Source: a virus
Reading direction: 5' to 3' (one strand)
DNA length: 23,382 nt
Virus record (IMG/VR): IMGVR_UViG_3300047459_000104
Span: 1-23,382 of that record
The translations under genes and the position numbers were made by a program. The notes below the pieces were generated by a model. The model searched no databases and had not been told where the DNA came from. It was given only the letters and a program-made list of their open reading frames with translations. Shown here in pieces: positions 3,066-23,382 of the stretch. Position 1 is the stretch's first letter, and every line of letters begins with the position of its first letter.

Positions 3066-3251
3066 ATGGCACAGATCAGTATGAAACAAAGCGAGAAACT
3101 AGATGGAGTTATCGAGCTACTAAGCTTGCAACAGGGGCAGCTTTCTAACATAGACAAACAACTTGAGTTATTAACTAGAATGTGTAATGAGAACGCTAAT
3201 GCAATTAATTCGCTTGAAGCTGAACTCGAAGAGATTAAGACTAGACTATGA
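3066..3251 (+). CDS. Small coiled-coil protein
   Basis: This is a 61-residue protein, almost entirely helical. A heptad-like pattern runs from about residue 10 to the end (LDGVIELLSLQQGQLSNIDK, then INSLEAELEEIKTRL), typical of a short dimeric or trimeric coiled coil. It has no membrane segment or signal peptide. It is the first gene after the intergenic promoter region, with an A-rich leader before its ATG, and its stop overlaps the next start as ATGA. Function is unknown. It resembles the many small phage coiled-coil proteins that act as adaptors, but no homology is recognised. Confidence 0.75.
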   Translation: MAQISMKQSEKLDGVIELLSLQQGQLSNIDKQLELLTRMCNENANAINSLEAELEEIKTRL

Positions 3252-3649
3252 GAATATTAATTGTATGCTTGTTCCTACTAGGGAGTGTAGTGCAAGCACA
3301 GGACTACTACAAATCTTCAGAGTGGTCTATTTATAATTACGATAGAATTACTAAGGAATTTTCTAAGGTAGGAACTAAAAAATCAGATACTAGAGTTATT
3401 ATAAGTACAGATTACTTTGCTCTTGAGAAAGAAGATGGTAAATTTATAATGGATCTTTGGGAGTATGTACATACAGATACATTAGGTCAGTGGTTTGTAC
3501 CAAAAAATCAAGATGGTAGTATATGTGTAGGTACTCAAGACAGTACAATATATGTATTCTCTCATTATGATGAGACTATAGAGAAATTTACTGCAGTTAC
3601 TGCATTACGTAAGATTAGAATTGTAGAACCTTTTAAAGCAATACCATGA
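3248..3649 (+). CDS. Secreted/periplasmic protein with signal peptide, paralog A
   Basis: This 133-residue protein starts with a textbook type I signal peptide: MRILIV, a hydrophobic core, and VQA|Q at 15-18. The predicted mature protein begins QDYYKSS. There is no lipobox cysteine, so it should be soluble in the periplasm or released. The mature part is beta-rich, with KEDGKFIMDLWEY at about 57-69 and GSICVGTQDSTIYVF at about 83-100. The next gene is a diverged tandem copy with the same layout (signal peptide, KEDG...W.Y, ICV...). Function is unknown. Phage-encoded secreted proteins of this kind are candidates for superinfection exclusion or envelope alteration, which here is inference from export and position. 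Confidence 0.85.
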   Translation: MRILIVCLFLLGSVVQAQDYYKSSEWSIYNYDRITKEFSKVGTKKSDTRVIISTDYFALEKEDGKFIMDLWEYVHTDTLGQWFVPKNQDGSICVGTQDSTIYVFSHYDETIEKFTAVTALRKIRIVEPFKAIP

Positions 3650-4035
3650 GACTATTAACTATTTGCCTGTTACTGTTAGGATATACAGTGCAGGCACAAT
3701 ATTACAAAACTAGCTTAACAACAGTATACACTTGGTCTGAACTAGAACAAAAACTTATAGAAACATCTGTAGATTGGGAAGGTACATTAGTAGATGTAGA
3801 CAAAGAGTATATTAAGATTAAGAAAGAGGATGGAGAAGTAATTAAAGAGTGGTGGGTATATTACAAAGAAGACGGCAAATTAGGAGACTGTTACATTACA
3901 GAAACTGAAAGCAAGATCTGTGTAAGTTCTGACTACAATAGTATCTTTATTTATTACAAACACGATGAAGAGTTAAATAGATTCTTACATCTAATTAGAC
4001 TATCACACATAGTTAAAGCAAAACCTTGGAAATGA
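3646..4035 (+). CDS. Secreted/periplasmic protein with signal peptide, paralog B
   Basis: This 129-residue protein is the tandem paralog of the preceding gene and is coupled to it by ATGA. The signal peptide MRLLTICLLLLGYTVQA|Q is cut after residue 17. The mature part begins QYYKTS, like QDYYKSS in paralog A. Shared blocks are KEDGEVIKEWWVYY at about 66-79 and SKICVSSDYNSIFIYY at about 91-106, followed by a D-E...F pattern. Identity outside the blocks is low, so the duplication is old or the copies have diverged under selection. No lipobox and no membrane span are seen after the signal peptide. Function is unknown. Confidence 0.85.
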   Translation: MRLLTICLLLLGYTVQAQYYKTSLTTVYTWSELEQKLIETSVDWEGTLVDVDKEYIKIKKEDGEVIKEWWVYYKEDGKLGDCYITETESKICVSSDYNSIFIYYKHDEELNRFLHLIRLSHIVKAKPWK

Positions 4036-4115: not shown

Positions 4116-4292
4116 ATGGATAGATTAGAAAGACGAGGAGTATTAGAACTAGTGGAAATACTAGACGATCTTACACTTAAGTTAGCCTATGAGGATCTAA
4201 CTAAGCTTAGACAACAAGGCCATAAGGGCCCTAACGTACAAGGATATATTTACATAATAGAAGACGAGATGAAATCTAGATCAAAGTTGTAG
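4116..4292 (+). CDS. Small protein of unknown function (58 aa)
   Basis: This is a 58-residue cytoplasmic-type protein that I do not recognise. The first 34 residues form an amphipathic helical region (LERRGVLELVEILDDLTLKL and onward). A GHKGPNVQGYIYIIEDE stretch and a basic C-terminus follow. It begins 3 bases after the membrane peptide and ends 1 base before the radical-SAM gene, so it is packed in the same operon. It has no signal peptide or metal-binding cysteines. Confidence 0.7.
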   Translation: MDRLERRGVLELVEILDDLTLKLAYEDLTKLRQQGHKGPNVQGYIYIIEDEMKSRSKL

Positions 4293-4293
4293 T

Positions 4294-5148
4294 ATGATAC
4301 AGAAAGTAAAACGTAAGACTTTTACTATCAGACCATCAGGACGCAGCACAGATTTTATATCACCATCATTCGGTTATGGTTGTTTATACGATTGTTCTTA
4401 TTGTTACATGAAGCGACACAAGCCAGACGGCTTATCAGTTGCAACAAACACCGGGGACATACTAACAGAGATAAACAACCATTCTTATTTTACACCGGTA
4501 GACAAACCCAACCAGACACATGCAGAGTACACTACCTACGACATTAGTTGTAACGAAGACTTTGCACTGCATGCTAAGTATCACGATTGGGAAAGGATCT
4601 TTGAGTTCTTCAGAGATCATCCGGTTGCCATGGGCAGCCTTGCTACCAAGTATGTAAATCGTAGTCTATTATTATTTAATCCTGAAGGTAAGATACGCAT
4701 CAGATTTAGTTTGATGCCACAGTACATGTCTGACATACATGAGCCATACACATCTAAAATTATTGATAGAATCAAAGCTATTGATCAGTTTATAGATGCA
4801 GGCTATGATGTGCATGTAAACTTTAGTCCAGTCATTGTAGAAGATAACTGGCTAGAGGATTATGAAGACTTGTTTAAGTTACTTGACAAACATGTGAGTA
4901 ACAAAGACAAGGTGCTAGCTGAAGTAATATTCCTAACACACAACGAGAAGAAGCATCAGGAGAATCTAACAAGACATCCCGAGGCAGAGCCACATTTGTG
5001 GAATCCCGCTGTGCAAGAAGAGAAGACATCTCAGTTCGGAGGTACTAACGTAAGGTATGCGCGACATTTGAAGAGTTTGTACATAGATGCATTCACAGCT
5101 CTACATGGTCGTATAATACCTTGGAACACAATTAGATACATATTTTAA
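4294..5148 (+). CDS. SPL-family radical SAM enzyme (spore photoproduct lyase-like)
   Basis: This 284-residue radical-SAM protein should bind a [4Fe-4S] cluster through C30-xxx-C34-xx-C37. By memory of Bacillus subtilis SplB (about 342 residues, C91/C95/C98), it aligns along most of its length. Y36 and Y38 match SplB Y97 and Y99. C86 in TYDISCNEDF matches catalytic C141 in its ASCTSD context. The block RIRFSLMPQY is followed by a DAGYDVHVNFSPVIVEDNW block like the SplB barrel, and the C-terminus reads RYIF. It lacks the roughly 60-residue SplB N-terminal extension. SplB splits the thymine dimer of UV-damaged spore DNA. A phage with a non-spore-forming host would need another target or use, so DNA photoproduct repair is a good hypothesis, not a fact. 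It is in an operon with secreted and unknown small genes. Confidence 0.85.
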   Translation: MIQKVKRKTFTIRPSGRSTDFISPSFGYGCLYDCSYCYMKRHKPDGLSVATNTGDILTEINNHSYFTPVDKPNQTHAEYTTYDISCNEDFALHAKYHDWERIFEFFRDHPVAMGSLATKYVNRSLLLFNPEGKIRIRFSLMPQYMSDIHEPYTSKIIDRIKAIDQFIDAGYDVHVNFSPVIVEDNWLEDYEDLFKLLDKHVSNKDKVLAEVIFLTHNEKKHQENLTRHPEAEPHLWNPAVQEEKTSQFGGTNVRYARHLKSLYIDAFTALHGRIIPWNTIRYIF

Positions 5149-5149
5149 G

Positions 5150-5440
5150 ATGAGTAAAGATTGGTGGGACGATAGTCCCCTACACCCAGCAAACCAAAAT
5201 GACGATGACTCAGAAAGAGAAGACGAGATGTTAGACAGTCTCGAGCTTGACAGAGAAGGCGTTGAAGCACTTGTGCATGTCGTACTATCTTACTATGATC
5301 TAGAGAAACAAGATCAAAAAGATTGTGGCTGCCAAGACCATCTATTCCATAAACTAGATTCTTTAAAAGAATGCCTAGAGATTGCAGGAGTAGACATGGA
5401 TCAAGAGTTAAAAGACTATAGAGAGATGTTAAACGAGTAA
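5150..5440 (+). CDS. Acidic protein of unknown function
   Basis: This 96-residue, very acidic protein (many Asp/Glu, especially residues 17-35) starts 1 base after the SPL gene. An N-terminal WWDD segment and disordered acidic stretch are followed by a helical part (VEALVHVVLSYYDLEKQDQK) with CGCQDHLFHKL at about 59-69 and a helical acidic tail. C59, C61, H64 and H67 could bind a metal, but the spacing is not a known finger. The charge could mimic DNA; this is speculation. Confidence 0.75.
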   Translation: MSKDWWDDSPLHPANQNDDDSEREDEMLDSLELDREGVEALVHVVLSYYDLEKQDQKDCGCQDHLFHKLDSLKECLEIAGVDMDQELKDYREMLNE

Positions 5441-6824: not shown

Positions 6825-7293
6825 AAGTGAGAACGCTAAACAGCTTACTAAGTACCTAGAAATCCTACCTATTGACGAGACTAAATTACAAGATCGTGGC
6901 TTTGTGAAAATAATGCCCGACAGGACTCTTACTCTCCGTCAAAAAGCGTTGGATTTATTTACGGTCAGAGGATGCGAGGATTGCTGGAATCAATTTGTAG
7001 TTGCCTATCCTATTAAGGATCAAGGCAGGCCTTTACACAACGACAAGAAGCGTAATAAACTAAAGTATATTGCGCTTATTACAAAAAGTCCAGATCTGCA
7101 CGAGACTATCATGAAAGCTCTAGATAACGAGAAAGAAGATAGAAAGCGTGCTAATTGGTCTGGTGAATTTCGCCCACGTTGGAAGATGATGTCATCGTAC
7201 ATAAACCAAGAAGCTTGGACTATGTATGAAGGCATGGAATTCGATACTCCAACAAGTACTAACCAACCTAATTACGGAGAAGATCTAATATGA
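6748..7293 (+). CDS. Unknown protein upstream of DnaB-type helicase (possible loader/accessory)
   Basis: This 181-residue protein has a predicted N-terminal winged-helix-like part (LTPSEFVYLLIKSENA; DRGFVKIMPDRTLTLRQKA, about 16-68). A basic middle follows (GRPLHNDKKRNKLKYIALI), then a helical, Trp-rich end (NWSGEFRPRWKMMSSYINQ). It is joined to the DnaB-type helicase by ATGA. Winged-helix proteins beside phage helicases are often loaders or replication initiators, but no family motif proves this. The ATG at 6748 overlaps the Cys-rich gene by 77 bases. GTG at 6754 or TTG at 6775 or 6790 would shorten the overlap. Confidence 0.7.
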   Translation: MKVSLNLTKLKGNKLTPSEFVYLLIKSENAKQLTKYLEILPIDETKLQDRGFVKIMPDRTLTLRQKALDLFTVRGCEDCWNQFVVAYPIKDQGRPLHNDKKRNKLKYIALITKSPDLHETIMKALDNEKEDRKRANWSGEFRPRWKMMSSYINQEAWTMYEGMEFDTPTSTNQPNYGEDLI

Positions 7294-8261
7294 GCGAGGA
7301 ACACAAGGCTTTACCTTGGCGCCATATTTCTCAATCATCTACTGCAGCCTTGCGCTACATTGATGGTAGGAGGAAAGGTGAGATCAAATCTCTTACTACC
7401 CCATGGAATAAGTTTAACAACATATCTATGGGAGGTATAGAGTGGCAGACTATCACAACTATTGCTGGTATGTCTGGTAGCGGGAAAACTGCAGTTCTTG
7501 GTCAATTGGAAACAGGTTTAAAAGATCTGAATCCAGACGAAGATTTTGCAATACTATCATTTAACTTCGAGATGTTATCCTCAAGGCTTGTCGCCCGCAA
7601 GCTTAGTAACAAGATGAAAATTACTACACAGCAGTTGTATAGTGCGTCAGAGAATTTTAGTCTCAACGACAACTACTATATGAATGCAGTACAGGAATCT
7701 CGTAAGTTGAATAAGTATGATATATACTATGTCGATATACCGGGTAGTGTCAAAGCTTTAGAAGCAACAGTAATAAAATTTTCTAAAGAAATAGGCAAAC
7801 CGGTTATCGTTATGTTAGATCATACTCTACTTGTAAAGAAGGCAGGTGGTGCGCAGGATAGAGATTTACTCTATGATCTGATGGCTATGTTTAACGGTCT
7901 CAAGAAGCTAATCAAGGTAGCATTTATCTTGATCTCGCAGATGAACCGTAACATCGAAGCATCAGAGCGTATCCAAAATCCAGATTTACACTACCCTAAG
8001 AAGCAAGACATCTTCGGTGCAGATGCATGTTACATGTACTCTGACATTGTGGTGGTAACACACCGCCCAGAGATGCTTGGTATTAGGGCATACGGACCAA
8101 AGAGATGGCCTACAGATGATGCTATATTTTGGCACTATCTAAAGGTTAGGGAAGGTGAGCCTTGCATAGCTCTTATGCAGAATAATCTAGCTCATAACGA
8201 AATATTGGACGCAGTTTCAATGTACTCAAGTAATCAAGAACCTAAAGAAACAGAAGACTAA
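7290..8261 (+). CDS. DnaB-type replicative helicase (C-terminal RecA domain only)
   Basis: This is a superfamily 4 hexameric helicase that unwinds the phage fork. It is 323 residues long, so it lacks the N-terminal helical domain of bacterial DnaB (about 470). Motifs are: H1/Walker A GMSGSGKT (60-67), H1a FNFEM (91-95, versus FSLEM), H2/Walker B VIVMLDHT with D177, H3 ISQMNR (215-220), and a C-terminal KVREG block (H4, KNRxG-like). The lack of the primase-interacting N-domain suggests a separate way of contacting the primase encoded at 9526. It follows the winged-helix-like gene by ATGA and touches the Sak4-like gene by TAATG. Confidence 0.9.
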   Translation: MSEEHKALPWRHISQSSTAALRYIDGRRKGEIKSLTTPWNKFNNISMGGIEWQTITTIAGMSGSGKTAVLGQLETGLKDLNPDEDFAILSFNFEMLSSRLVARKLSNKMKITTQQLYSASENFSLNDNYYMNAVQESRKLNKYDIYYVDIPGSVKALEATVIKFSKEIGKPVIVMLDHTLLVKKAGGAQDRDLLYDLMAMFNGLKKLIKVAFILISQMNRNIEASERIQNPDLHYPKKQDIFGADACYMYSDIVVVTHRPEMLGIRAYGPKRWPTDDAIFWHYLKVREGEPCIALMQNNLAHNEILDAVSMYSSNQEPKETED

Positions 8262-15139: not shown

Positions 15140-16150
15140 ATGAACTACTTAGTAGCCAAAGTAACACCTACAGATGTTACTGTAATTATTGATGGAAAGC
15201 ACAAGAGAATCCGAAAGGATTCTCCTGATGCTGAATTAGTTATTGCGCTCGTAAAGCAATACAATTCGTGTAATATTCTAACTGAGAGAGTAGATATTAT
15301 CACAAAGATAGAAGAACTTTGTAACCCTGCAAAGAAAATCGAATTTAATTCTGATGGAAGATTTGAATTTGATGGGAACTCTGCTATGTACCTTAGAGGT
15401 ACTAGTGACCCTATACCTGAGTTTCTTGCTAAGAAGCTTTTGGAATACATTGCCAAAGGCCTTAACGTAGAAGCTCTTGTTAACTTCTGGAAGAACACAC
15501 TACTGAACCCTGACAAAGGGGTGAGACAACAGTTGTTTAGTTTTCTAGAACACAATGGCCACCCTATTACGGACAAGGGTTATTTCTTAGCTTACAAGGC
15601 TGTAGGAATTAAGCGTAAGTATGACGCTGAAACTGGCGAAGAAGTAATCAATGTTCGTTACGATGAGGATACAGGTGAAAGAATAGAAGAGAAGTTATCT
15701 CAATCTATGACATTCAAGCCTATCCACAATGGGCCATATGGTTCTACTATTAAGGTAGGGGAACCAATCACTATGCCAAGAGAAGAGTGCGACTCTGATC
15801 CTGAAGTAACTTGTTCTGCAGGTTTACACGTAGGTTCTATGGAGTATGTCCACGACTTTGGACATAGCGATAAAGTAATACTTGAGGTACTAGTTAGTCC
15901 TCGTAATGTTGTAGCAGTACCAACTGACTACAATAACACAAAGATGCGTACTTGTGAGTACTATCCAATCGCTGTTACTAATGGTGAGAATGAGAATGTC
16001 TACTTAGAATCTGATTACGCTGCCTTTGACCATGCTTGCATGGAAGATGACATTGTAAACTATGAGGAATCTAAGCGAGATGTTATCAAGCAGATTGAAG
16101 ATGAACTCACAGAGCGTAGAACTGTTGCAGACAGTATACTAACATCATGA
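15140..16150 (+). CDS. rIIB: rIIB-like protein
   Basis: This 336-residue protein has rIIB-like blocks: KGYFLAYKAV (146-155), the CSAGLHVGSMEYV block (225-237), VSPRNVVAVPTDYNNTKMRT (252-271) and an EYYPIAV end. The C-terminus is acidic and helical. T4 rIIB acts with rIIA. The protein starts 10 bases after the rIIA-like stop, which supports a pair. The next gene begins by ATGA overlap. Its molecular function is unknown. Confidence 0.8.
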   Translation: MNYLVAKVTPTDVTVIIDGKHKRIRKDSPDAELVIALVKQYNSCNILTERVDIITKIEELCNPAKKIEFNSDGRFEFDGNSAMYLRGTSDPIPEFLAKKLLEYIAKGLNVEALVNFWKNTLLNPDKGVRQQLFSFLEHNGHPITDKGYFLAYKAVGIKRKYDAETGEEVINVRYDEDTGERIEEKLSQSMTFKPIHNGPYGSTIKVGEPITMPREECDSDPEVTCSAGLHVGSMEYVHDFGHSDKVILEVLVSPRNVVAVPTDYNNTKMRTCEYYPIAVTNGENENVYLESDYAAFDHACMEDDIVNYEESKRDVIKQIEDELTERRTVADSILTS

Positions 16151-16833
16151 GTGAGTCCGCAGAAGTAAGCACACAGACTTACAATATTGCGGTAGATACT
16201 ATTGGAGAAACCTGGGCCCAGCATTTGGGCTCAGAGTTTTCCAAACAGTATATGAAAGATCTATCTGCTACAATAAAAAGTGAGAGAATGTCGCATGTAA
16301 TATACCCTGAACCACAGGATGTATTTAATGCATACTTGATTACACCGTACGACAAAGTGCGTGTTGTAATACTAGGCCAAGATCCGTATCATAACGGAGC
16401 AGCAGATGGTCTAGCTTTTAGCAGTAAGCGTGAGAACTTTATTCCACAATCACTGCGTAACATATTCAAAGAAATTGGATATGCAGCTGTAAAGTCACCT
16501 AACTTACAAAGGTGGGCAGAACAAGGAGTGCTACTTCTTAATACTTGCCTAACCGTACGTAAGGGATTGCCTAACTCGCATTCCAAAATAGGTTGGCAAG
16601 AGTTTACATTCAGAACTATACAATCTTTAAATGATAGAGAAGAGCCTGTTGTGTTTATCCTATGGGGTGCACACGCTCAGAAGTATCAGGAATACATAGA
16701 TAAAAAACACCCAATCTTAACGTCACCACACCCGTCACCATTCTCTGCGCACAGAGGGTTCTTCGGTAGTGGACACTTTAATTGGGTGAATCAGTATTTC
16801 AGAGATTTTGATAAACCAGAGATTAACTGGTAA
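16147..16833 (+). CDS. ung: Uracil-DNA glycosylase, family 1
   Basis: This 228-residue UDG removes uracil from DNA and begins base excision repair. Motifs are complete: water-activating GQDPYHN (77-83, D79), LLLNTCLTVRKG (129-140, Asn132), HSKIGWQEF (145-153), and the minor-groove loop HPSPFSAHRGFFG (195-207, His195). Length matches the E. coli enzyme (229). It is the last gene of the long plus-strand operon, with a hairpin terminator 64 bases after it. A phage UDG implies that thymine, not uracil, is the normal base here, and that it guards against deaminated cytosine or misincorporated dUMP. Start and overlap with rIIB (ATGA) are clear. Confidence 0.95.
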   Translation: MSESAEVSTQTYNIAVDTIGETWAQHLGSEFSKQYMKDLSATIKSERMSHVIYPEPQDVFNAYLITPYDKVRVVILGQDPYHNGAADGLAFSSKRENFIPQSLRNIFKEIGYAAVKSPNLQRWAEQGVLLLNTCLTVRKGLPNSHSKIGWQEFTFRTIQSLNDREEPVVFILWGAHAQKYQEYIDKKHPILTSPHPSPFSAHRGFFGSGHFNWVNQYFRDFDKPEINW

Positions 16834-17519: not shown

Positions 17520-17655
17520 TGTCTATAATTGTATAAATTTGTATTAATCCTAAAAAAATTTGTATTTCGTAGTAGGGAGCGTGCTCCTCTGGCTTAAAGT
17601 GCCTAACTCCAAATACTAGGCCCTTAGCCCAATTTATTCCAAATTCTATCTTCAT
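17491..17655 (-). CDS. Tiny protein, member of a paralogous pair (54 aa)
   Basis: This 54-residue protein begins MKIEFGINWAKGLVFGVRHF and continues KPEEHAPYYEIQIFLGLIQI. It starts by TAATG overlap with the stop of the giant gene, and its last 29 bases overlap the start of the virion-like gene in another frame. It is paralogous to the 43-residue protein at 16924. The shared YYEIQIFLG/YNEFQVHLG block is an aromatic-hydrophobic segment. Both members use the same start-stop arrangement, which argues for real genes. Function is unknown. Confidence 0.65.
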   Translation of the reverse strand: MKIEFGINWAKGLVFGVRHFKPEEHAPYYEIQIFLGLIQIYTIIDNGNTNDNSN

Positions 17656-20600
17656 TAGTCTTTTTCTATTTGAGTTTCCATTAAGTAATCTATAGATCTA
17701 ATTGAGTTTCCAAATGGAACTACTTTCATCCATTTCTTACTCAAAGGATCTCTCCTACTATCTTCATATCCTTCTTTGTCTATTATGTAATCCTGCGTAG
17801 CGCTTATTGCATTAGTAGCATCTTTTATGGTTTTCATTACCGGCGCTGGGTTTCTTAATACTTCTGCAGCTGTTCCTGGATTCATGTAGAACTCACCATC
17901 TTGCTCTAGTCTAAAGAATGTATTTTGAAGTAATCTTAGAGTTTTCTCTGTATCTTCATCATCTTCATCTTCTCCTAAAGCTTTTAGAAGTGCTCCTGCT
18001 CCAGTTACAGCTAGATAGAATTTTACACCCGCCATATTCTTACGCATATTTGCAAAAGTAAGATCATCTTTTATGTCTCCTCTCATGCTAGCGTCAGAAA
18101 CTCCGTATCCTAAAGTCAATGTATTTAAAATACTTTTAATCAACATTTCTAAAGATCCTTTAAACCCTACTTTAGAGTAAGCTTTATACCTACCTTCAGT
18201 ATATCTTTCTAGTTGAGCGTTGTAAACTTTTTCTCCCCACCTAGTATTTATACCTTCAAATGCCCAGGTTCTAAACTGAGTACCAAGTCTACCCCAAATA
18301 GTTTTCTTAATTAGCAGGGCAGAGTTTGGATCATAGTTACCGTGGTTTACTTTATTCATTTCTATCGTAGCATCTCTAAACGCAGTAAATTTATTTTTAG
18401 TTTCTGCATCTAGCTTACTAGTCCACTCATCTGCTACATCTTTAAACTCAGGCTTGATGTTTGCATCATCGTCGTACATGTCATACAAAGTATTACCTTT
18501 ATCGTCAATCTTTGTGTTGTACATCTTTGCTACCATTGGAGCTACCTGGTTCATGTATTCCGTACTTGTTTGGAAATAGAATGGATCAACCTTAGATATA
18601 AACTTAAACCTAGTTCTATTTTTATTTTTACCATAGTAAGCATCTAACTGCTCAAATAATATTCCATATTTTTCTGCAAGTTTTTGAGCTTTACTAGCTA
18701 TTCCAGGCGCATGTTGTTTAAGTATAACCGCGTAGGCTTTTGTAAGTTGGGCTGTAGTGTAGTCTTCATTACCTGCCGCATGAACAAAGTTAGCTATCGT
18801 ACCAAAACTAAGGTTGTTTATCCCAGACATTAGGTTCCATCCTAATCCTTTTAACTGTGTATATTGAACTAATCTTTCTAAAGGCTTTTTTAAACTTTTA
18901 GGTTTTTTACCTAGTTTTTTAAGGCGCTCATCAAGAACTGATTTTTCTTGTAAATATGTACTATCATCTATTTCTCCAGCTGCAAGCTTAGTCTTGAGAT
19001 TTTCAAACTCTTGCTTGATTTCTGCAACTTCTCTAGAGAATACAATACCTTTTTCTGCTATATCTGTACTTACGCCATATAATTTAGAATCAATTGCGTA
19101 TTGTACAGCTGCTTGAGTAGTTTTTAAACCTCCTATTTTACTGTCTAGCTTAAGTTTTCTAGCCACTTTTCTTTTCATAGGATCTCCTTTAGAATCTAGC
19201 TGTATCTCTTCAGCCTCTCTAAGAACTCTTTGAAGTAACAAGATTTTATCTTCTACCTGAGACTTGTAATCATATGCTACAGACATTGCTGTAAACATCT
19301 TCATTACTTTCTCTATGTCATAAGACTTCTCCTTTGAATCTCCCTTTAACATTCTAACCGGTACATTCTTTTCTATCTCTCCAGTGTCAGGATTTCTAAC
19401 ACCTTTTGTAGCAATTTGAGGATCTAAAGTAATTTCCTGGTCTATATTAAACAAGTAATCTTTTATAGATGTTTTTTTCATTGCTGAAAATATTGCGTCA
19501 ACACCTTCGTTTGAAACTTGCTCTACAAACCCACGACGGGCATATGGGAAGAAGTTTTCCGGTAAAGTTGAAACTAACCCTTCAGGTAACAATGTCATTA
19601 AATCTTTCATTGTATTTGTATAGAAGTCATGAAACTTCTTAAGCTCAGGGTTATTCTGTATCTCCTGGTAGTTTTTATCGTAGTATTGTTTATTACCTAC
19701 AGGAGCAGATACTGTTGCTTTGTATCCTGTGTTTTTAGAAAGAGCTTTACCTCCACCATATCTAGCGTTTAAATAGTAAATAGGACTATGTCTTTCTTTA
19801 TACTGCCTTTGCTTACTATTTATCTCTTCTTGGAATTCTTGTAAGTTACCTGCAGCTCCAGATACTTCTAGCTCTATGTCTAGCATTCTTTGCTCTTCAG
19901 CTATCTTATACTTATTGTATTTTTTAATAGCCTTCTCTACCAACTCTTCTCTAGCTTCTGCACCTCCTACTTGACCGTCCAAGTATTCTATATACTCTTC
20001 CTTAGATTTAAACGGAGAGTTAAATTTACCCACTCCGTCTATAAACCATCTAATATCAACTGTTACTTCTATCTTATTCAGATCTCTGTACAGTAATGCA
20101 GTTGCTGTATTCTTAGCAGCTGGAGTTTTAGCATTTTGAAGTCTTTTGTAGTATCTAGCAAATGCTTTGTTTTTAACTGTATTATATTTTGAGCTGTAAG
20201 GAGATATAAAGTATCCTGTAAGTTCTCCTTTTTCATTCTTTTGGAAGAATATATTAGGGTCTTTTTTAAATGCAGGGTTATTTCTTATGTCGTCCATTGC
20301 AGACTCAATCTCCATAAATCTAGCTTGTATTTCAGAATCTGAGTTTCTATTAGCTGATTTTAAAAACTTGTCTAAAGTTCTTACGATTGGGTGCTGGAAT
20401 TTACTAAGATCTAAGAAAGAAGTTTTAAGAACATTCTCTCCTTCCATAGCTATTAAGTCTTCTCTAACTACTTGCTCTGTTTCTGGCATTTCTGCATTAA
20501 TAACCTCTACAGCCATGTCAACAAGATTGTCTAGAAGTCTTACTTTAATACCGCTAGCAACATCACTACTTTCTTTCAATAGATTATTGAATCTATTTCT

Positions 20601-23382
20601 TGTAGTTCTATCTTTTACATCTAGGTATTTACTAGTAACCTTTCCGTAGTCATACATGTCTACAATATTAAGAGCTTCCTTTAGCTCTACTTTTGTAGGG
20701 TTTTTAGCTGATGCAATATTTTGAGCAAACGCTAAATGAATAGATATTATTCTTTCTAAACTTCCAAAGGCCTTGTTAGATGACAATGTACTTATCTCAT
20801 CTTCGTATTTATTTAGACGCTCTTGCATCTTTTTACCTTCTTTGGTTGTAAGAACTTTATCAGTTAATTTACTTTTAAGTTTATCTGCTCTTTCTCTATA
20901 CACAGATAGCAACTCTTCTACCGTACTTATCTTAGCTTGCAAGTCAGGCTTTCTCCCAGTAAATACTGGAGACAACAATTGCTGATACCTATACTGTTGC
21001 ATTGCTTCTTTAAACTCTTCTTGAGTGTATTCCCCTGATTTTATTTTTTCGTAGCTAGCCAATACGTGGGCCGCCTCATCTAAATAAAGGTTAAGCGGTA
21101 GAACTCCTGCAGCATTATCCTCTGCTTTCTTTACAACTTGTTTAACCTCGTTAGAAGCAGAAGTCTCTGTTATAAAAGTCATAATATCATTAACAGCCTC
21201 TGCAAGTAAACTATCTTTGTTTATATCTATTCCTAGATCTATCCCAATGCTGTTTAAGAATTCTGTTACAAGTTCTTTGAACCTTGTAAATAGGTTCTTT
21301 TTAGCAGGCACTGTATTTAAGAAAGATTGCACCTGTGATTTAGTCATTACATTTGTAACAAACTCTTGAGGGTTGTTAAATGCATACTCTAGAATTTTAT
21401 ATTCTAAAGTTCCCTTTACAATATCTCCTCTTTTTACAGCTGCTTTAAAAGCAGTGTTTGCAGCTTTAGTTAGATATTTTATTTTTCTACTAAACTCACT
21501 GTCAGGATTAGCAATCTCTTCAACTAAGAATCCGTGTAGTATTTCGTGCAGTATGGTTTCTTGCAATTTGTGCGGGTGTCTAATAATGGTATCTCTGTCT
21601 AGAGAAACAGTACCGCTCTTAGGTCTGTAAGCCCCGTAGGCACCCTTGCCCTCTCTATTTTTTATACCATCCTCAATAACTATTTGCTTTATTGCACTAC
21701 CTTTTGTGTCTATATTAGATAGCAATATCTTACTTAGTAGAGCTTGTGTCTCAGAAGTAGTTTCTTCGCTAACTGCGTTAAGCACTTCTTTTACGCCAGC
21801 TCTACCAGGCGAAGAAACTGTCATAGATACAGGATCTAATCCTAGCACACTTTTATCTACAGGTGGTGTATCTTTAGATATTTGTGGTAATCTTGTACCT
21901 ACTTCTGATGGTTTAGGAACATTGTTCTGAGGGAGTACACTCTGCTCAGTGATCTTAATGCCATCTTTTGTAAACTTATCTACTCCTGCATACTCATTAA
22001 CTTTTACAAAGCTAGATGTCTGGAATCCTTTCTTACCTATTCTTCTAAATACAATATCACCATTCTCATCTACACCCATCTTTTGGAACAGCTCGTTCTC
22101 TGTCTTACCTTCAATAGCTATAACCTCTATATACCGTCTAGTACCTTCATCATCTGCATACAGAATTCTGTTTAGTTCTTGGCTAGCATCAGGCTGCTTA
22201 AGTGTAAACTCGTAGTTTATAGTTTTATTATTGTAATCTATTGTCTGCATTGGAGATACAGACATTTTCTTAAAGTCTTTTTCAGATAAAGTTACAGCTC
22301 TGTGAGGGTTGTGCTGTAAAAATTCTACCATTACCTCCATAATATTTAGAGCTTCTGGAGAAGTTGGAGAGTTTAGTAATCTCTCTTCTTGACGTAATGA
22401 GTCATAGAATCCTACCTGATCTAGATATGCAGTGTTCATGAACTTAGAGAAGTTACCTGCAGACTGTACACCGCCTGTAATGTAGGTATACTTAACAATG
22501 TCTTCAAACAATTCTCTGTGTCCTGGAATTACAGACTCGTATAATGCTACAAAGTCTACAGCCATTTGATCTGCAATATCATCCTGCTTAGAATTCACAT
22601 AACTAATACTAGCCGGTACACCTGCGTTAGCATTGATTGGTATCAATCTACTTATAAATAAGTTTCTCTTACCAAACTCTGTTTTTTGTATCTCAGCAAC
22701 TCTTGTTGCTATATTATTTTCAATGTTTGTTGTAAGTCTATGTCTAGCTTCTACAATATCCTCATTAAATGTTTTTTCAAATGCTCTTGAGAATGATTTA
22801 TTTAATAACGCATTAAACAATTCTTCTCTAGTCTTTTGGCTAACATTTTCTGCTCCAGTAAACTGTTGCCACAATGCTATCATCTGTTTGTGGCTTCTGT
22901 TACTAAACGGTAGTATAGAAGACAAGCTATCGTATACTTTTGCAAACTGATTGTACATTTCTTCTAGTTGCCCGCCTTGTAAGTTTTCTAGTCCTCCAAT
23001 ACTTCGTAATCCTTTGTCAAAGATTTCCTCCATATTGTCAATAGCTCTTTGAGCATCAAAAATTGTACTACCAATACCCTTAGTTCTTGGAGACATGATA
23101 CCTCTCTGTAGCTTTCTAATAGGGTCAGAAGAGTTCTGTAACTGTTTAAACCCTGCTAGTATAGCCATTTGAGTTCTATAGTAGCTTGGGTTTGGCTTAT
23201 TACTAGTTCTTAACTGATCTATAAAGTCTTGAGAGCTAAACGTTCTAAACTCTCCATCACTTCCTTTTCTATACTCATCTATAAAGTTAGTGTAATCTTC
23301 TTCCGCATCTATACCAGCTTTTTCTGCAAGCTTAGTCATAGTAGCATTAAAGGCATCATTTCTAATCTGTTCCTCAGATCTA
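17655..23382 (-). CDS. Giant polyvalent virion-type protein with zincin metallopeptidase motif (5' truncated by window)
   Basis: The frame is open to the window edge, so the start is missing; at least 1,908 residues are visible. Counting from the ATG at 23339, a metallopeptidase motif HEILH is at 598-602 (21534-21548), with a candidate third ligand E659 in NPQEFVTN. Before it come helical regions with Pro/Thr-rich linkers (about 470-520). After it come long charged helical stretches with coiled-coil character (about 800-1360). Two hydrophobic stretches are near 1497-1525 and at 1772-1788 (KFYLAVTGAGALLKALG). The C-terminal part has QFRTWAFEGINTRWGEK and a basic end. Giant multidomain proteins like this are carried in virions of many phages, sometimes ejected with DNA. 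No RNA polymerase DxDxD or lysozyme motif is seen. Confidence 0.8.
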   Translation of the reverse strand, partial: RSEEQIRNDAFNATMTKLAEKAGIDAEEDYTNFIDEYRKGSDGEFRTFSSQDFIDQLRTSNKPNPSYYRTQMAILAGFKQLQNSSDPIRKLQRGIMSPRTKGIGSTIFDAQRAIDNMEEIFDKGLRSIGGLENLQGGQLEEMYNQFAKVYDSLSSILPFSNRSHKQMIALWQQFTGAENVSQKTREELFNALLNKSFSRAFEKTFNEDIVEARHRLTTNIENNIATRVAEIQKTEFGKRNLFISRLIPINANAGVPASISYVNSKQDDIADQMAVDFVALYESVIPGHRELFEDIVKYTYITGGVQSAGNFSKFMNTAYLDQVGFYDSLRQEERLLNSPTSPEALNIMEVMVEFLQHNPHRAVTLSEKDFKKMSVSPMQTIDYNNKTINYEFTLKQPDASQELNRILYADDEGTRRYIEVIAIEGKTENELFQKMGVDENGDIVFRRIGKKGFQTSSFVKVNEYAGVDKFTKDGIKITEQSVLPQNNVPKPSEVGTRLPQISKDTPPVDKSVLGLDPVSMTVSSPGRAGVKEVLNAVSEETTSETQALLSKILLSNIDTKGSAIKQIVIEDGIKNREGKGAYGAYRPKSGTVSLDRDTIIRHPHKLQETILHEILHGFLVEEIANPDSEFSRKIKYLTKAANTAFKAAVKRGDIVKGTLEYKILEYAFNNPQEFVTNVMTKSQVQSFLNTVPAKKNLFTRFKELVTEFLNSIGIDLGIDINKDSLLAEAVNDIMTFITETSASNEVKQVVKKAEDNAAGVLPLNLYLDEAAHVLASYEKIKSGEYTQEEFKEAMQQYRYQQLLSPVFTGRKPDLQAKISTVEELLSVYRERADKLKSKLTDKVLTTKEGKKMQERLNKYEDEISTLSSNKAFGSLERIISIHLAFAQNIASAKNPTKVELKEALNIVDMYDYGKVTSKYLDVKDRTTRNRFNNLLKESSDVASGIKVRLLDNLVDMAVEVINAEMPETEQVVREDLIAMEGENVLKTSFLDLSKFQHPIVRTLDKFLKSANRNSDSEIQARFMEIESAMDDIRNNPAFKKDPNIFFQKNEKGELTGYFISPYSSKYNTVKNKAFARYYKRLQNAKTPAAKNTATALLYRDLNKIEVTVDIRWFIDGVGKFNSPFKSKEEYIEYLDGQVGGAEAREELVEKAIKKYNKYKIAEEQRMLDIELEVSGAAGNLQEFQEEINSKQRQYKERHSPIYYLNARYGGGKALSKNTGYKATVSAPVGNKQYYDKNYQEIQNNPELKKFHDFYTNTMKDLMTLLPEGLVSTLPENFFPYARRGFVEQVSNEGVDAIFSAMKKTSIKDYLFNIDQEITLDPQIATKGVRNPDTGEIEKNVPVRMLKGDSKEKSYDIEKVMKMFTAMSVAYDYKSQVEDKILLLQRVLREAEEIQLDSKGDPMKRKVARKLKLDSKIGGLKTTQAAVQYAIDSKLYGVSTDIAEKGIVFSREVAEIKQEFENLKTKLAAGEIDDSTYLQEKSVLDERLKKLGKKPKSLKKPLERLVQYTQLKGLGWNLMSGINNLSFGTIANFVHAAGNEDYTTAQLTKAYAVILKQHAPGIASKAQKLAEKYGILFEQLDAYYGKNKNRTRFKFISKVDPFYFQTSTEYMNQVAPMVAKMYNTKIDDKGNTLYDMYDDDANIKPEFKDVADEWTSKLDAETKNKFTAFRDATIEMNKVNHGNYDPNSALLIKKTIWGRLGTQFRTWAFEGINTRWGEKVYNAQLERYTEGRYKAYSKVGFKGSLEMLIKSILNTLTLGYGVSDASMRGDIKDDLTFANMRKNMAGVKFYLAVTGAGALLKALGEDEDDEDTEKTLRLLQNTFFRLEQDGEFYMNPGTAAEVLRNPAPVMKTIKDATNAISATQDYIIDKEGYEDSRRDPLSKKWMKVVPFGNSIRSIDYLMETQIEKD

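Follow-up and report, generated by a model that had tools for sequence, protein, structure and literature searches.

The lesion repaired by spore photoproduct lyase (SPL) is thought to belong mainly to spore DNA, yet SPL-like genes are found in many bacteria that form no endospores and in hundreds of phages. The locus studied here raises the question of what such an enzyme would do in a virus. The window (the whole stretch analysed, 23,382 nucleotides of IMG/VR record IMGVR_UViG_3300047459_000104) is a phage early or replication region, and one of its genes was described in a first-pass annotation as a phage-encoded radical SAM enzyme of the SPL family. Our preferred reading, to which we give a probability of about 0.6, is that this gene encodes a DNA-repair lyase that works like SPL and directly reverses a UV-induced thymine photoproduct in the dark.

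The gene and its reading frame

The open reading frame is confirmed to be present in the sequence. It starts with ATG, and it lies in an operon-like arrangement with two short genes:

4116–4292, plus strand: open reading frame of 58 amino acids, stop 1 nt before the SPL-like start (operonic; read from the sequence)
4294–5148, plus strand: SPL-family radical SAM enzyme, 284 amino acids, short form without the N-terminal extension (TIGR03886 313.7 bits; PF20903 82.8 bits; AlphaFold2 model against 4fhc/4fhf, Z 30.2)
5150–5440, plus strand: open reading frame of 96 amino acids with no Pfam or PHROG match, start 1 nt after the SPL-like stop

The start of the SPL-like gene is fixed, because an in-frame TGA lies seven codons upstream of the ATG with no possible start codon between them. 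The open frame upstream is also short (at most 18 residues) in all 121 of the closest viral loci. Together these observations rule out a hidden N-terminal extension upstream, and the extension already reported as missing in the first pass is indeed absent. Comparison of the window gene with its relatives gave dN/dS values of 0.035–0.09 (about 0.05). This is a real phage gene, strongly conserved and under strong purifying selection.

Family assignment and predicted structure

The best profile match was to TIGR03886 (‘spore photoproduct lyase family protein’ in NCBIfam), with 313.7 bits and an E-value of 1.5e-93 over model positions 62–346 of 346. The Pfam SPL family PF20903 matched residues 7–260 with 82.8 bits (E = 2.8e-23), above its gathering cut-off of 27 bits, and the profile for true SPL, TIGR04070, gave 83.1 bits. 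The phage protein thus falls under the equivalog cut-offs of both TIGR03886 (437.55 bits) and TIGR04070 (400 bits); true Bacillus SPL, used as a control, scored 516.9 bits on TIGR04070. The absent N-terminus does not by itself explain the low TIGR03886 score, since a Bacteroidota relative reaches 442.1 bits across the same core region. In sequence searches of the PDB (phmmer/hmmsearch), the only significant matches were Geobacillus SPL chains.

An AlphaFold2 model built from 34 sequences was confident (pLDDT 90.7, pTM 0.89). Six SPL entries matched it with Z-scores of 30.1–30.2 at 2.0–2.1 Å over 272–274 residues, and the next fold, RlmN, followed at Z 14.3. Foldseek concurred, with query-normalised TM-scores of 0.87–0.88 for SPL and at most 0.57 for the other chains listed. 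The alignment along the whole barrel that had been proposed by eye is borne out by the superposition on Geobacillus SPL (Z 30, 2.0 Å, about 272 residues). Residue 1 of the model pairs with Geobacillus SPL residue 62, which means that the phage protein lacks the N-terminal part of SPL. In the active SPL of C. acetobutylicum the conserved cysteine is residue 74 (PMC5368176), which by analogy suggests that the N-terminal part may be dispensable.

The protein has the CX3CX2C motif of radical SAM enzymes in a (partial) TIM barrel, and its best fold matches are radical SAM enzymes. The profiles, the confident model, and the fold search all assign it to SPL and to none of the other radical SAM families. 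The family named in the first-pass annotation therefore stands, with the refinement that TIGR03886, and not SplB itself, is closest. From its sequence we consider the protein a divergent sister of bacterial TIGR03886 rather than an orthologue of SplB. It adds a new viral variant to a known enzyme family.

The likeness to SplB (TIGR04070; PDB 4FHC/4FHD/4FHF from Geobacillus thermodenitrificans) covers the fold from end to end of the phage protein (Z 30.2, 2.0 Å), the cluster motif, the counterparts of Y97, Y99, C141, and K175, and the C-terminal hairpin. Differences include the low identity (about 20–24 per cent), the lack of SPL residues 1–61, the replacement of R305 by Q247 in the hairpin and of S143 by E88, and a phage gene without sporulation context. 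TIGR03886 proteins from Bacteroidota, Actinomycetota, Alphaproteobacteria, and Deinococcus share 40–50 per cent identity and the C-terminal end RYxF with the phage protein. Unlike the phage protein, they carry an N-terminal extension, most cellular members have Glu or Thr in place of Cys86, and nearly all have Cys in place of Asn278; the phage protein also scores below the family cut-off. TIGR03886 occurs mostly in bacteria that do not form endospores. We found no proven activity for any TIGR03886 protein, and no phage SPL in the part of the literature that our search covered. Being labelled ‘spore photoproduct lyase family protein’ in a database is no guarantee of SPL chemistry.

Catalytic residues

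Residues were paired in a 39-sequence alignment that included true Bacillus SPL, and the phmmer/hmmsearch comparisons with the PDB agree for Geobacillus SPL. The relevant positions are:

4381–4404, plus strand: cluster motif C30-x3-C34-x2-C37 with Y36 inside, aligned to SplB C91/C95/C98 and Y97 (invariant in 80 viral sequences)
4405–4407, plus strand: Y38, counterpart by alignment of SplB Y99, which relays the radical to SAM (PMC3742179)
4549–4551, plus strand: C86, counterpart by alignments of SplB C141 (Cys in 121/129 viral proteins; Glu or Thr in most bacterial TIGR03886)
4648–4650, plus strand: K119, an invariant lysine aligned to SplB K175
5014–5058, plus strand: C-terminal beta-hairpin, residues 241–255 (model strands 241–245 and 251–255), at the aligned site of the SPL hairpin R305/Y306 (Bacillus numbering), here Q247/F248

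All the cysteine and tyrosine correspondences first drawn by eye (C30/C34/C37, Y36, Y38, and C86 with SplB C91/C95/C98, Y97, Y99, and C141) were confirmed. None of the six catalytic residues varies among the 80 closest viral sequences. The SPL hairpin is said, in work attributed to Benjdia and colleagues in 2012, to be important for opening DNA.

In SPL, the roles of C141 as hydrogen donor, of Y99 in the relay, and of Y97 were experimentally tested (PMC3742179). C86 sits in the aligned column of this fourth cysteine (C141 in Bacillus, C140 in Geobacillus) and is the putative donor. Its orientation towards the cluster is inferred from the alignment with SPL: the model backbone superposes on SPL at 2.0 Å, and C86 aligns with the SPL cysteine.

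Both tyrosines, Y36 and Y38, are present in all of the 129 non-redundant viral proteins compared, whose residue at position 86 is Cys in 121, Glu in four, Thr in two, and Asn in two. Two members of the phage clade, L254:1234–2067 (YDIGTNSD) and L262:3211–4074 (YDIGTNED), have Thr in place of the catalytic cysteine, so C86 is not absolutely required. The relay described as conserved in the first pass is intact in the phage protein. Across the wider family only its tyrosines hold; the cysteine is replaced by Glu or Thr in many bacterial relatives, which makes C86 the informative residue.

The cysteine switch in cellular relatives

Position 86 was Cys in 30 and Glu in 50 of the best 80 loci of the genome collection. 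Most of the Cys86 loci belong to Bacteroidota; the others include two phage contigs in MAGs, a single Archangium, and a MAG labelled Williamsia. When genomes were drawn evenly from three phyla, TIGR03886-type members had Cys86 in 4/4 cases from Bacteroidota (one of them a short form), Glu86 in 6/6 from Pseudomonadota, and Glu or Thr, with no Cys, in Actinomycetota. What is new here is that the predicted hydrogen-donating cysteine is gone from most bacterial TIGR03886 proteins and is retained in the phage clade and Bacteroidota. The replacements show that Glu- and Thr-type members are unable to use the SPL hydrogen donor unchanged. We considered C278 as a replacement donor specific to Glu-type proteins and ruled it out, as cellular Cys-type proteins carry C278 too.

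We built a tree of 83 proteins (IQ-TREE, LG+C20 PMSF), in which the window protein clusters with viral sequences only. The tree requires three changes between viral and cellular carriers and six changes at residue 86. Cys is also the residue in true SPL and in the TIGR04070-like outgroup, so on the simplest reading Cys86 is the ancestral state and Glu/Thr are derived. A second set of viral proteins (L215, L216, L218, L220, L221, L223) is likewise composed of phage-borne TIGR03886 relatives, but it branches among the cellular sequences, retains the N-terminal extension, and carries Glu or Asn at position 86.

The compact 284-residue phage form has the complete SPL radical relay, whereas the better known SPL-family proteins of Deinococcus, Actinomycetota, and Proteobacteria have exchanged the cysteine for Glu or Thr. 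This is a natural comparison for asking what SPL-like enzymes repair outside spores and how a thymine radical is quenched without a cysteine.

The short chromosomal form from the even draw, at L341:1498–2379 in Bacteroidota genome G208, has 293 residues, Cys86, and 49 per cent identity to the phage protein. Its cluster motif is altered (GCLGGCRDSYC, CX3CX4C).

Viral distribution, host, and genomic context

The gene is widespread in viruses. In scans of IMG/VR, close patterns found 216 relatives, and a degenerate profile brought the number of viral contigs to at least 565. In an annotated phage collection of 50,697 records there were only two weak matches (H1 and H2), both gut phages. One of them (L092) sits on a very long branch in the tree and played no part in the conclusions. 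Two apparent cellular hits, L095 (Rickettsiales) and L094 (Bacteroidetes), are not cellular, since their contigs are phage. A TIGR04070 search of 18 records found one SPL-like place per record, with no second SPL-like gene in the carriers.

The host is probably a member of Bacteroidota, as tentatively indicated by three observations. A 99 per cent identical copy lies on a 5.2 kb contig binned in a Bacteroidetes MAG, the PolA of the window is nearest to polymerases of gut and crAss-like phages, and Bacteroidota supply the nearest Cys-type relatives among cellular genomes. Bacteroidota make no endospores, so a Bacteroidota host would be non-sporulating. Our results suggest that viruses of non-spore-forming bacteria may also repair UV damage in the manner of SPL.

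In the window the SPL-like gene belongs to an operon-like run with PolA, a UvsW/XPB-type helicase, a DnaB-like helicase, Sak4, primase, RusA, exonuclease VIII, and uracil-DNA glycosylase; RIIA/RIIB are encoded in the window as well. These replication genes recur as neighbours of the SPL-like gene across viral loci, and almost all of them share its strand. We used one downstream gene as a marker for counting phages with and without the SPL-like gene:

7290–8261, plus strand: DnaB-like helicase

Thirty related loci had enough sequence upstream of DnaB; the SPL-like gene was present in 22 and absent in 8 of them. Apart from the missing gene, two of the loci without it (L273 and L313) have a collinear module. 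The SPL-like gene is therefore an accessory insert.

Proposed role and alternatives

If the phage protein works like SPL, C30, C34, and C37 would hold a [4Fe-4S] cluster for the cleavage of SAM. A thymine–thymine photoproduct would be flipped out of the helix, and the 5'-deoxyadenosyl radical would abstract a hydrogen from C6 of its saturated thymine. The linking bond would then break, C86 would give a hydrogen to the resulting thymine allylic radical, and Y38 (with Y36) would return the radical, regenerating SAM. Because the gene lies among replication genes, this light-free repair of incoming UV-exposed phage DNA, and of host DNA, would take place before or during replication and would benefit the phage.

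Several lines of evidence count for this reading. SPL is the sole close fold and the sole significant PDB sequence match, and the radical relay and C-terminal hairpin are kept. The operon-like position among replication genes, the purifying selection, the spread over at least 565 viral contigs, and the lack of classical UV-repair genes in 13 large carrier contigs (described below) are also in its favour. In the non-spore-former Curtobacterium, UVC induces an SPL-family gene (PMC12029717), and LexA sites are predicted before splB homologues in alpha- and beta-proteobacteria (PMC3323433); both support a UV-repair role for the wider family. Counting against it are the 20–24 per cent identity to true SPL, the TIGR04070 score of 83 against 400, the change of hairpin R305 to Gln, the Thr in place of C86 in two members of the phage clade, and the 8/30 related phages without the gene; for TIGR03886 proteins in general we found no proven activity. 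In addition, the spore photoproduct is favoured in dehydrated A-form DNA (PMC3949526; PMC12029717).

Photolyase (PF00875) and T4 endonuclease V (PF03013) repair UV dimers in phage DNA, the purpose also proposed here, but their folds and chemistry are unrelated to the SPL-like enzyme. Neither a photolyase nor a T4-type pyrimidine-dimer glycosylase was found in 13 carrier contigs of 53–129 kb. This absence is suggestive only, because all of these contigs may be fragments. As controls in fourteen named genomes, the photolyase search was positive in eight and the glycosylase search in three. No photolyase took the place of the SPL-like gene in five relatives without it.

The strongest alternative is that an SPL-fold radical SAM enzyme reverses some other DNA lesion, such as a different crosslink within or between strands or a pyrimidine that is oxidised or saturated, and that UV thymine photoproducts are a minor substrate at most. 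The grouping of the phage protein with TIGR03886 and not with true SPL fits this idea, and the variation of the hydrogen-donor position across the family (Cys, Glu, Thr, or Asn) suggests drift in chemistry. Archaeal SplB-like proteins have also been proposed to repair other crosslinks (PMC4929162). However, the phage clade has the full SPL set of cysteine and two tyrosines (C/Y/Y), unlike the variable bacterial members, which makes SPL-type chemistry probable; we regard the alternative as a real but doubtful prospect. Cellular genomic context does not name the substrate, since no conserved operon partner was found among 28 Cys-type and 50 Glu-type bacterial loci.

It is improbable that the enzyme modifies or edits the phage's own DNA at a thymine-derived base instead of repairing damage. 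Base-modifying enzymes are often carried by phages, radical SAM enzymes are able to act on unreactive carbon centres, and the gene is located among replication genes. Yet the window showed no modification cassette of the hydroxymethylase, TET-like, glycosyltransferase, or nucleotide-kinase kind, and the gene is optional among close relatives with the same replication genes, unlike a genome-wide modification system. Marginally less credible still is a radical SAM enzyme acting on tRNA, a peptide, or a cofactor through an SPL-like barrel. The general fold is common to RlmN, PFL-activase, and viperin (Z 13–14), but the drop in Z from 30 to 14, the SPL-type cysteine and hairpin, and the DNA-replication neighbourhood speak against it.

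Within SPL-like repair, a more specific and rather unlikely extension is that uncultivated phages of a large clade have an enzyme of their own that needs no light and acts on a thymine photoproduct formed in the dense, partly dehydrated DNA of UV-exposed virions. If so, spore-photoproduct-type chemistry would be a general part of virus survival and not a peculiarity of spores.

Other genes in the window and beside cellular relatives

Positions 3248–3649 and 3646–4035 of the window encode a tandem pair of small proteins that are related to each other and begin like signal peptides (..VQAQ); relatives of them occur near the SPL-like gene in other contigs. The uracil-DNA glycosylase (16147–16833; PF03167, 70 bits) lies beside RIIA/RIIB and is also found in 5/16 related phage records. 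On the minus strand, 17655–23339 is an open reading frame of 1894 residues that has no match in Pfam and may encode a large virion protein.

Some bacteria have a TIGR03886 gene beside a second, TIGR04070-like SPL-family gene (L087:2299–4420; L168; L096, L097, L099, L104), a hint of paired enzymes; the two overlap in Roseomonas haemaphysalidis and are divergent in Rufibacter and Pontibacter. Three plasmids also carry SPL-family genes. In a Streptomyces plasmid (L085:3114–5870), a cryptochrome/photolyase-family gene lies directly upstream in the same direction. The regulator gene ddrOP3 is two genes upstream in Deinococcus deserti plasmid 3 (L083:3567–5855), and csx18 and cas1 are found about 2 kb past the SPL-family gene of a Gloeothece plasmid (L090:5874–6759).
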